Shown here: piece after piece, positions 132-7,614 of the stretch | Layout of the letters: each line of letters begins with the position of its first letter | Numbering within the stretch: the first letter of the stretch is position 1 | Source of the DNA: a bacterium | Lineage (GTDB): Bacteria; AUK180 | Direction: 5' to 3' | Assembly: GCA_030622125.1 (NCBI GenBank) | Contig: JAUXGM010000058.1 | Coordinates: forward strand, 1 to 12,774 | Length of the DNA: 12,774 nt | The notes under the pieces: generated by a model | Databases searched by the model: none | The model's input: only the letters and a program-made list of their open reading frames with translations | What the model was told of the DNA's origin: nothing | Made by a program: the position numbers and the translations under genes

Positions 132-162
132 TTCTACTTTTTCTACCACCGTCCCCATTTTT
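132..162 (-). repeat. GGGGACGGTGGT repeat copy 2 (inverted)
   Basis: Positions 132-151 pair perfectly with 1-20 (20 of 20). Positions 145-162 pair perfectly with 866-883 (18 of 18, accaccgtccccattttt). This copy is therefore the shared arm of two nested inverted pairs. One encloses about 111 non-coding bases to its left. The other encloses the nucleotidyltransferase and small-protein genes to its right. The stop codon of the small protein gene (161-163) overlaps its last two bases. Confidence 0.75.
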
Positions 163-865: not shown

Positions 866-908
866 AAAAAATGGGGACGGTGGTTGATTTTGTTGATTTT
901 TTAATTAA
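866..908 (+). repeat. GGGGACGGTGGT repeat copy 3
   Basis: Positions 866-883 (aaaaatggggacggtggt) are the exact reverse complement of 145-162. They are followed by the doubled word TTGATTTT-G-TTGATTTT and a TTAATTAAT tail. From memory, very similar sequences flank IS200-like (Y1) transposase genes in uncultured bacteria; this is recollection, not a search. It lies 68 bases upstream of the nucleotidyltransferase start and marks the right edge of that cassette. Confidence 0.7.
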
Positions 909-4857: not shown

Positions 4858-5769
4858 ATGGAAATTGAGATCATTGGAACTGAATCGCTTGGCGTAAGAG
4901 GGCTGTGTTGTTTTATAAAAGCAAAAAAAAGAAGAATATTAATTGATCCGGGAGTTGCACTTGGTTATTTAAGACATCGGTTACTTCCTCATCCTCTACA
5001 AGTAGCAGTAGGTGAAGAAATAAAAAAAACAATTATTGATAGGTGGAAGGATACAACCGATATTGTTATAAGTCATTTTCATGGTGATCATGTTCCATTA
5101 AAAGATGCAAATCCTTACCAACTTAATATTAAAAAACTCATCGGTTCAAATCCCAATGTTCGTATCTGGACAAAAGATCCTTCTCATCTTTCTAACATAG
5201 AATTAAAAAGATATAAAGATATTTCAATTATGTTAAATAATAAAATAATATCGGCAGATGGGAAAAATAATGACATCTTGACTTTTTCAAAACCAGTGCC
5301 GCACGGAATAAAAAAGAGTTCACAAACTGTTATTATGACAAGAATTTGTGATGATGATCTTGTATTTGTTCACACATCCGATATTCAACTTTTAAATGAT
5401 GAAGCGGTAAAAAAAATAATAGAATGGAAAGCAGACATTGCATTTGTAGGAGGACCGCCATTATATCTTTCCAACCGTCTATCAAAATATCAAGTAAGAA
5501 TGGCATGGAAAAGGGCTAAATTCTTATCTGAAAATGTCAATATTCTCATACTTGATCACCATTTAATGAGAGATTATAACGGTGTAAAATGGATTAAAAG
5601 ATTATCACAAGATGGGAAAAAGGTTCTTTGCGGAGCAGATTTTATGAAAAAACCACGAAGATTGCTTGAAGCAAAAAGAGAAAAATTATATGAACAAATG
5701 CCGGTCCCGGATAATTGGCACGATCTATATAGTAAAGGACTTGTTACTACAAAGAAATACCGGAGTTAG
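4858..5769 (+). CDS. metallo-beta-lactamase-fold hydrolase, UPF0282/COG2248-like
   Basis: A 303-residue metal-dependent hydrolase. The N-terminus IIGTESLGVRGL and the IDPGVALG motif (30-36) followed by LPHP resemble the UPF0282/COG2248 family, known mainly from archaea. The metal-binding signature SHFHGDH gives H73, H75, D77 and H78. H149 (VPHG), D175 (HTSDIQ) and H234/H235 (LDHHLMRD) can complete a two-metal site. No signal peptide or membrane segment is visible, so it should be cytoplasmic. Related folds include RNases and small-molecule hydrolases, and the substrate is unknown. The ATG follows a strong extended -10 box and lacks a ribosome binding site. It lies 39 bases after priA in the same direction, with no obvious terminator between them. 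Its stop codon touches the left edge of the inverted-repeat element at 5770. Confidence 0.82.
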   Translation: MEIEIIGTESLGVRGLCCFIKAKKRRILIDPGVALGYLRHRLLPHPLQVAVGEEIKKTIIDRWKDTTDIVISHFHGDHVPLKDANPYQLNIKKLIGSNPNVRIWTKDPSHLSNIELKRYKDISIMLNNKIISADGKNNDILTFSKPVPHGIKKSSQTVIMTRICDDDLVFVHTSDIQLLNDEAVKKIIEWKADIAFVGGPPLYLSNRLSKYQVRMAWKRAKFLSENVNILILDHHLMRDYNGVKWIKRLSQDGKKVLCGADFMKKPRRLLEAKREKLYEQMPVPDNWHDLYSKGLVTTKKYRS

Positions 5770-5828
5770 AGATCAGTAAAAAACAATATTAATCTCCATA
5801 TCCCAATAAAAGAGGGACATACCTCAAC
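5770..5828 (+). repeat. left terminal inverted repeat
   Basis: AAAAACAATATTAATCTCC at 5779-5797 is the exact reverse complement of 6264-6282. After ten unmatched bases of equal length on both sides, 5808-5828 matches 6233-6253 at 19 of 21 positions. A looser AGAT-AGTAAA match extends it to 5770, next to the stop codon. Confidence 0.75.
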
Positions 5829-5858
5829 TTTGGATGTTTTAAAGTTGAGATGTGTCCC
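5814..5858. repeat. hairpin joining the left arm to the first tandem unit
   Basis: GGGACA (5814-5819) and CTCAACTTT (5823-5831) can pair with AAAGTTGAG (5841-5849) and TGTCCC (5853-5858), with a nine-base loop and a small internal mismatch. No T-run follows on the plus strand, so I do not call it an intrinsic terminator. Confidence 0.6.
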
Positions 5859-6043
5859 GGATTCTTCATTAGATAGCGATAGAACACCCGAAAACAATAT
5901 CGTCAAAGGAAATAGAATGACTGTGTCCCGGACCCTTCCTTAGATAGCGATAGAACACCCGAAAACAATATCGTCAAAGGAAATAGAATGACTGTGTCCC
6001 GGATTCTTCCTTAGACAACGATAAATTACCCGAAAACAATATT
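5851..6043 (+). repeat. 71-base tandem repeat, about 2.7 copies
   Basis: Units start at 5851, 5922 and 5993, each opening TGTGTCCCGGA. Units one and two differ at only three of 71 positions by my count. Unit three matches for about 51 bases, with several substitutions, and then diverges after CAATATT. There are no unique spacers. Each unit contains CCCGAAAACAATAT, related to the element's terminal repeats. Confidence 0.85.
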
Positions 6044-6083
6044 ACCGGTTAATAAGAAAATAAATTAATAAGGCAAAAAGGTT

Positions 6084-6123
6084 AAAAGATGGATTATCGG
6101 GTCAAGCCCGATAATGACAGAAA
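6084..6123. repeat. dispersed GATGGATT...AATGACAG repeat, copy B, with hairpin
   Basis: AAAAGATGGATT (6084-6095) and AATGACAG (6113-6120) match the ends of copy A at 997-1043. The middle is a perfect 9-bp hairpin: ATTATCGGG (6093-6101), loop TCAAG, CCCGATAAT (6107-6115). It is followed by A-runs on the plus strand, not T-runs. Confidence 0.65.
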
Positions 6124-6188
6124 AAAAGATAATAACAAAAAAAATAGCAACGGCGTCAAACAGGGGACAGTAAACAGTTGCGAGTTCA

Positions 6189-6212
6189 CCCCGCACCAGT
6201 AATGGTGCTGGG
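6189..6212. repeat. hairpin near right end of the element
   Basis: GCACCA (6193-6198), loop GTAA and TGGTGC (6203-6208) form a perfect stem. It is extended by CCC (6189-6191) with GGG (6210-6212) across one mismatch. A subterminal hairpin of this kind is typical of IS200/IS605-like ends and REP sequences, but no transposase is nearby. Confidence 0.6.
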
Positions 6213-6232
6213 CATGCCTCTAACCTCTTGTT

Positions 6233-6293
6233 GTTGAGATACGTCCCTCTTTTGTGGCTTTTCGGAGATTAATATTGTTTTTCTTTACTATCT
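6233..6293 (-). repeat. right terminal inverted repeat
   Basis: This is the partner of 5770-5828. GGAGATTAATATTGTTTTT at 6264-6282 matches exactly, and 6233-6253 matches at 19 of 21 positions. It ends one base before the stop codon of the nucleotidase-like gene on the minus strand. Confidence 0.75.
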
Positions 6294-6294
6294 A

Positions 6295-7614
6295 CTACTT
6301 TTTCAAATATTTTATCTGGGCATCCTGAACTGAGATTTTTGTATCAATTGCCTCTAATTTTAATTTCCTTGCAATGTATGAATCCATTACAATTGTTACC
6401 TTATTGGAATTTAACTTTTTCAGTTCATAAAAAAAGAAGTACGGATATTTTGAAAGTGATTCTTTAAGTTCATTATAATCTTCTGCATTTAAGGAAACCG
6501 TAACAACGGTGTTAGGATACGGTGATTTCATATAGATCCATTCCTTTGTAACCTCACCTTCCGACAATAATTCCCTTTCGCTGCCATCATTTATCAAAGC
6601 ACAATCAGCATCAGTTACCGATAGAAATGCCTTTGCAGTAAATGTGGTGGATTTCTTAAAAGTATCAAGTGGTTCATTCAAATAACCGACAACATTATTT
6701 CCACTTTTATTATATTTTTTATCATATCTTAAAATCAATTTTGTAATACACCTATTATCTTTCTTAAAATCATCAACAGGAATAAGATTCGCCTGATATC
6801 CAGCTATCTTCTTTGTTTTTTTATCTACTGTCAATTTTAAAACACCAACATTTCTTAAATAGCAGCCCGTTTCAAGTATAATAGTATCCCCTACTTTTAT
6901 TCCTTCATCAAGTTTTTGATGATCATGACCTGAAAAAATAATATCTATTTCCGGAAATTGTTGTGCTATCTTTTTATCATACTCTACACCGTTGTGGGAA
7001 ATAAGAGTAATTATATCTGTTCTATCCTTCAAATATCCGATTATTTTAGAAAGTTCCATATTTACATCAAGAAATTCAACATCTTCCCATCCCTTATAAT
7101 TCCTTAAGTAATCTTTTTCGGTATCATAAGAAAGACCAATAAAAACAACTTTTATTCCTTTTTTTTCCATTATTTTGTAAGGTAGATCCCCAATCAATTT
7201 ACCGTTATTTTTCACATTAAACACTAAAAATGATGTTTTTAATATCCTCTTAAATCTCATATAGGTGGAGAAATCTTCTTTTAATTCCTGATTACCGGGA
7301 ACAAAGATATCATATCCCATTTTGTCGAATATCTTAAATGTTGCCACACCATTTGAATACTTATCAATAAAATTCCCCTTATGGATTAAGTCACCGGAAT
7401 CAATTAGAATATCACAATGTTCCTCGTTCTTTAGGATATGAATTAAGGTAAATAAATTGTTAAGACCCCCTTTGCCATCTTGATATGGTTTTATGTGCCC
7501 ATGGATATCATTGGTATGAACGATATAGAGACTAATATTATCAGCAGGTTTATACCCGGACAGAGAAACAACAATAGCAAAGAAAATAAGCCACAGTAAA
7601 AATCTTTTTTTCAT
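6295..7614 (-). CDS. exported 5'-nucleotidase-like metallophosphoesterase, divergent active site
   Basis: A 439-residue protein with an N-terminal signal peptide (hydrophobic core about 5-18, no lipobox), so it probably acts outside the inner membrane. The metallophosphoesterase domain has TNDIHGH (D36, H38), DSGD (72-75), SHNG (H207) and GHDH (H230, H232), as in UshA-type 5'-nucleotidases. The GNHE motif reads GNQE (107-110), losing the histidine that assists catalysis in this family. The C-terminal substrate domain is recognisable (DADCALINDGSERELLSEG, about 335-353), but the usual N-GG-IR motif reads NDGSER. It may therefore be slow, have another substrate or serve as a binding protein. 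ATG 7614 overlaps the patatin stop (ATGA), which implies translational coupling. It is the last gene of its operon. Confidence 0.85.
   Translation of the reverse strand: MKKRFLLWLIFFAIVVSLSGYKPADNISLYIVHTNDIHGHIKPYQDGKGGLNNLFTLIHILKNEEHCDILIDSGDLIHKGNFIDKYSNGVATFKIFDKMGYDIFVPGNQELKEDFSTYMRFKRILKTSFLVFNVKNNGKLIGDLPYKIMEKKGIKVVFIGLSYDTEKDYLRNYKGWEDVEFLDVNMELSKIIGYLKDRTDIITLISHNGVEYDKKIAQQFPEIDIIFSGHDHQKLDEGIKVGDTIILETGCYLRNVGVLKLTVDKKTKKIAGYQANLIPVDDFKKDNRCITKLILRYDKKYNKSGNNVVGYLNEPLDTFKKSTTFTAKAFLSVTDADCALINDGSERELLSEGEVTKEWIYMKSPYPNTVVTVSLNAEDYNELKESLSKYPYFFFYELKKLNSNKVTIVMDSYIARKLKLEAIDTKISVQDAQIKYLKK

Follow-up and report, generated by a model that had tools for sequence, protein, structure and literature searches.

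The 12,774-nucleotide stretch of DNA analyzed here (the window) contains a gap between the stop codons of two convergent genes (5770 to 6294). Its left neighbor is a plus-strand gene coding for a metallo-beta-lactamase-fold protein (4858 to 5769), and its right neighbor is a minus-strand gene coding for a metallophosphoesterase or 5'-nucleotidase-like protein (6295 to 7614). Protein similarity to the isolate AUK180 probably places the uncultured host in Candidatus Uvuciota, of which AUK180 is the GTDB name (PMC11382960). The left gene has no match in the relatives, and on the AUK180 contig the orthologue of the right gene adjoins a different gene. This nearest relative stands at ~57% protein identity and lacks synteny for the gene pair, and comparison with it could demonstrate neither an empty site nor a target duplication.

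A preliminary description of this DNA had presented the gap as symmetrical from end to end, with tandem units, hairpins, and a recurrent short word inside it, and each of these observations holds. The arms (5779 to 5828 and 6233 to 6282) are 50 nt each and 82% complementary, with a 19/19 match (AAAAACAATATTAATCTCC; 5779 to 5797 in the left arm) and a 19/21 match (5808 to 5828 in the left arm) on either side of a divergent linker of equal length. The word AAAACAATAT occurs five times, at 5780, 5891, 5962, and 6033 and, inverted solely in the right end, at 6272 to 6281. The interior contains an array with a period of 71 and two hairpins, one at 5814 to 5858 (-26.4 kcal/mol; z = -5.9) and one at 6093 to 6115 (z = -4.7).

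The S-hairpin-T repeat family

A search seeded with the gap recovered 115 matches in its own genome (2.08 Mb in 192 contigs). Alignment of 34 copies defined a unit of ~140 bp, S-hairpin-T, composed of an S module (consensus AAAACAATATTAAwCTCCG, a variable linker, and AAAAGAGGGACA), a hairpin with GGGACA...TGTCCC at its base, and a T module (consensus GGAyTCTTCCTTAGATAACGATAgaCCaCCCGAgAACAATATAGcCAAAGGAAATAG). At ~136 places in the genome the sequence matches a covariance model of the unit, and ~60 of these matches are full length. Rather than being single copy, the arm occurs far beyond chance expectation, as part of a family of >100 copies that are dispersed and noncoding. Extension of the search to eight relatives recovered one weak match, in genome G002, where an S module is joined to a shorter GGACATATCTC-GTA-GAGATGTGTCC hairpin with no visible T module. 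Because this is the single match among the eight, S-hairpin-T appears to be close to genus restricted, with one recognizable relative in a sister genus. A phage or viral origin of the repeat was considered and rejected, the viral contigs containing no exact match to the T-module core.

The S modules are mostly preceded by degenerate arrays of 7- to 8-mers (AGAGGTT, AATAAGGA, GAGTTGA, and AATAGTA) in a constant register (e.g., 1985 to 2027 of L041 and 2125 to 2158 of L055). Such a heptamer or octamer array lies upstream of 61 of 95 S modules, versus ~0.8% of random positions. Intergenic heptamer repeats have been described in other bacteria (PMC4679880).

The compensatory changes by which the preliminary description had proposed to check the fold are present in the family hairpin. 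Across the 34 copies, 95.6% of the cells of its 18-pair helix are paired. In 14 of these copies, three adjacent U-A pairs are replaced by A-U, and none of the 500 shuffles and none of the slid versions scores as high for covariation. The switch of the three pairs may stand for few events. The covariation indicates that the hairpin matters and is silent on whether it does so as DNA or RNA. It would fit a structured RNA, or a bidirectional terminator or attenuator serving the convergent genes, with the repeats kept for their RNA function, and a DNA hairpin recognized by a Y1 transposase would covary equally. The RNA reading is further favored by the frequent convergence of the genes around repeat-bearing gaps (with rough ORF calling, 15 convergent, 11 tandem, and 6 divergent) and by two terminator-like matches in the gap where 0.6 is expected, both on the minus strand and one on the CGTC-type hairpin described below. 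Against it, loops, copy number, and module order differ freely among loci, and the main hairpin is followed by no T-run; an intrinsic terminator at that hairpin was rejected, the candidates lying on the minus strand only and elsewhere in the gap. An Rfam RNA identity was likewise discarded, as no Rfam family matches. We consider an RNA-centered explanation distinctly improbable, and any RNA or terminator role between the convergent genes would be secondary.

REPs of the GTAG/CGTC type are defined as palindromes of 20 to 40 bp with an unpaired tag, GTAG or CGTC, at one end. The S-hairpin-T hairpin was not filed with them because it has no such unpaired tag, GGGACA/TGTCCC being paired in all 34 copies.

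Composition of the gap

The left arm is an S module (5779 to 5820, plus strand; profile match at 5780 to 5819) that reads (A)AAAACAATATTAATCTCC, a variable linker, and AAAAGAGGGACA. It leads into the family hairpin (5814 to 5858, plus strand), whose halves, GGGACAtACCTCAACTTT and AAAGTTGAGATGTGTCCC, form an 18-nt inverted repeat with 89% complementarity. Repeat detection then delimits three 71-bp tandem units on the plus strand, each corresponding to the 3' half of the hairpin plus a T module (5851 to 6063; the right limit is alternatively given as 6042). The first two units, 96% identical to each other, have in common variants that occur at no other locus read; therefore, the array grew locally. 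Runs of a single unit number 109, with 14 of two units, two of three units (the window included), and one of six. The array exits through AAAACAATATTACCGGTT (6033 to 6050, plus strand), a junction that recurs elsewhere: contig C103 matches across it at 94.5%, and among the exit-junction sites in the sampled DNA, three have AATATTACCGGTT and five have ACGATATTACCGGTT.

Other repeat families occupy the space up to the right arm. On the minus strand, the hairpin TGTC-ATTATCGGG-CTTGA-CCCGATAAT-CCA (6090 to 6119) belongs to the CGTC superfamily of REPs; its tag, stem, loop, and tail all fit the published definition (a CGTC/TGTC/CCTC tag, an 8- to 9-bp stem starting with AT, a 4- to 5-nt loop, and a CCA tail). 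It has 11 matches in its own genome and 29, 11, and 7 matches in the relatives G002, G001, and G004, respectively. The octamer GGGGACAG (6163 to 6170, plus strand) conforms to GGGGWSAS, a published motif of RAYT/TIRYT terminal repeats, although the fit could be due to chance. It is followed by a GCACC palindrome, CCCGCACCAGTAATGGTGCTGGGC (6190 to 6213), whose pattern occurs at eight places in the sampled DNA. The right arm is a second S module in inverted orientation (6233 to 6283, minus strand; profile match from 6283 to 6243), and its hairpin is cut short after the 5' half. Elsewhere in the DNA read, we found 25 pattern matches to GTAGGGG...CCC palindromes with very diverse stems, which fit GTAG-tagged REPs (e.g., C143:3971 in L141, C121:115 in L196, and C172:7332 in L082); REPs of the GTAG type seem to coexist with those of the CGTC type in this genome.

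The preliminary description had proposed a MITE-like element with terminal inverted repeats of 50 to 60 bases. The gap would then be a nonautonomous transposon of ~500 bp, moved by the cut-and-paste action of a DDE transposase, and the complementarity of the 50-nt arms, their closeness to both stop codons, and the high copy number of the arm in the genome are in its favor. The arrangement of the family argues against it. From ~467 kb of genome DNA read (the stretches around matches plus a small sample), we collected 97 S modules, among which neighbors within 700 bp, the window included, are direct in 11 cases, facing in 3, and back-to-back in none. The facing pairs lie in the window and on contigs C146 and C21; in order of size, the total lengths of the three are 278, 504, and 520 bp. 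Instead of ending at the arm, S-hairpin-T copies run past it into the hairpin and the T module, the latter being missing from 31 of the 97 S modules. In the right arm, the hairpin is left unclosed and is succeeded by an AGAGGTT-type microrepeat and then the GCACC palindrome. C151 has an exact copy of the 35-nt junction between this palindrome and the truncated S module, and therefore the right half of the gap is a composite that exists elsewhere. A single MITE bounded by terminal inverted repeats was rejected as a general structure on the orientation counts, and we regard this explanation as highly improbable. Each apparent terminal inverted repeat is the 5' portion of an S-hairpin-T copy; almost none of the other copies has a facing partner, and the symmetry of the gap stems from the two copies here ending up in opposite orientations. 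What survives of the mobile-like reading is a dispersed, intergenic, high-copy-number repeat family but not a single unit bounded by inverted repeats, and the grown repeat cluster that had been offered as another option is supported.

Reassortment among copies and candidate transposases

The 65 full-length copies are all distinct, and their variants are assorted as a patchwork. The mean r2 between common variant sites falls from 0.33 at 1 to 3 bp to 0.045 at >60 bp, and all four combinations are present in 89% of distant site pairs. In coalescent simulations without recombination (60 genealogies, with the mean identity matched to that of the copies), the distant r2 was 0.356 (minimum, 0.168), and 30% of the pairs (maximum, 50%) had all four combinations. 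The genome is known from a fragmented metagenome bin, and for 26 of the 65 full copies the nearest contig end is within 300 bp; an assembly artifact was rejected as the source of the patchwork because the picture is the same for the 39 copies that lie 300 bp or more from any contig end (distant r2, 0.046; 79% of distant pairs with all four combinations). Beyond ~60 bp, linkage is nearly lost, far below the level that a nonrecombining genealogy would leave, and therefore the copies either have traded short tracts or were pieced together from several templates; the recurrent alternative junctions point the same way. This near-free reassortment is the most unusual aspect of the family. Extrapolated further, the intergenic DNA of this lineage might be continually rewritten from shared blocks of ~10 to 20 nt, by an efficient mechanism of copying or conversion, whether template switching or the exchange of single-strand patches at hairpins, with the copies nearing linkage equilibrium. 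We hold this view only tentatively and find it rather doubtful; if it were true, dispersed copies in near-linkage equilibrium would be unlike ordinary transposon families.

The genome encodes four Y1 transposases of the RAYT type. Three of their genes are flanked by long inverted repeats starting with GGGGACGGTGGT, and gene-free pairs of such ends, ~160 to 200 bp apart, occur on contigs C34, C40, C45, C50, and C91. The ends of three of these miniature elements, similar copies of one type (L200, L201, and L203 on C34, C40, and C50, respectively), match those of the gene on C140, and those of a fourth (L202 on C45) match those of the gene on C141. These ends indicate that miniature nonautonomous RAYT derivatives exist in the genome for at least two transposases. 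Two solo RAYT-type ends (GGGACGGTGGT) are also present in the window, pointing outward from a DUF6036 gene at 300 to 797. The left end (145 to 155, minus strand) reads on in the manner of the C141/C45 type, the right end (874 to 884, plus strand) in that of the C91 type, so they are apparently two distinct remnants rather than a pair.

The fourth Y1 gene, on contig C172, codes for a protein with a PF01797 match and is flanked by TTAGGGACACACCTCGC and GCGAGGGGCGTCCCTAA. Because these flanks resemble the hairpin foot GGGACAyACCTC...GAGrTGTGTCCC, and there are 157 occurrences of the foot pattern GGGACRYACCTY versus 1 of a reversed-pattern control, this transposase is the best candidate mobilizer of S-hairpin-T. 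The resemblance covers ~12 matching nucleotides of the foot only; the C172 ends include neither the S nor the T module, and the nearest S-hairpin-T copy is ~3 kb away. Mobilization in trans by this enzyme is plausible but unproven.

Our preferred explanation, to which we assign a probability of about 0.7, is that the gap is an intergenic mosaic array comparable to NIMEs and BIMEs, made of several short palindromic repeat families, with S-hairpin-T mobilized in trans and then recombining. Different repeat families are interleaved in variable order in its intergenic DNA. The copies would have spread as nonautonomous single-stranded hairpin substrates of a Y1 transposase of the RAYT/TIRYT type, perhaps that of C172. 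In later steps, arrays would grow by tandem duplication, and short tracts would be swapped via short-homology recombination or template switching. A mosaic that owes its spread chiefly to the recombination and duplication of intergenic DNA, with no transposase and with RAYTs unrelated to it, seems to us somewhat unlikely. The patchwork, the recurrent composite junctions, the weak link to the C172 ends, and the constant register of the flanking microrepeats and the S module would suit such a process; the dispersal over many separate intergenic sites, the RAYT-derived miniature elements in the same genome, and the GGGACR foot that the family has in common with RAYT ends speak against it.

Comparison with known intergenic repeats

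S-hairpin-T is a new family, comparable in general kind to REPs, BIMEs, and NIMEs. Like the neisserial NIMEs, which combine RS repeats with the CGTC-1 REP dRS3 and for which a role in recombination is suspected (PMC3898611, PMC3733652), it forms intergenic arrays in which segments of 30 to 160 bp are interleaved with short CGTC-type palindromes and other families. It differs in that the long segment bears its own covarying hairpin, and the likeness is architectural, with no sequence kinship to NIMEs seen. With BIMEs, REPs, and REPINs and their RAYTs (PMC3116915, PMC2817692), it has in common high-copy-number extragenic palindromes, mosaic order, tandem clusters, and Y1 transposases in the genome, but its hairpin has no unpaired GTAG/CGTC tag and none of the transposase genes has the full repeat at its flanks. 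The pneumococcal BOX elements (PMC3049150) are similarly modular, with end modules, a variable number of tandem middle modules, and a stem-loop; this likeness, too, is architectural and concerns the tandem middle, with no sequence kinship seen. No constant right-end module was found at S-hairpin-T.

The family adds to the REP/BIME/NIME class a large and apparently lineage-restricted hairpin repeat from a barely studied candidate phylum, in a genome where RAYT genes, their miniature derivatives, and mosaic hairpin arrays occur side by side. The near absence of linkage within copies of at most ~140 bp offers a testable handle on how bacterial intergenic repeats of this kind evolve, by recombination or template switching versus simple transposition.

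TIRYTs and TIRtrons (PMC3733652) resemble the system described here in having Y1 transposases flanked by terminal inverted repeats that begin with GGGGAC or GGGAC and in having dispersed derivatives; S-hairpin-T differs from them in that it has only the short GGGACRYACCT foot and no full terminal inverted repeat. In the relatives, the Y1 genes have long, near-perfect terminal inverted repeats starting with GGGAC (L118, L121, L126, L129, L133, and L137), which often continue with a 7- to 9-nt direct repeat (e.g., GTTGCAAAAGTTGCA in L058) in a gene-specific version.
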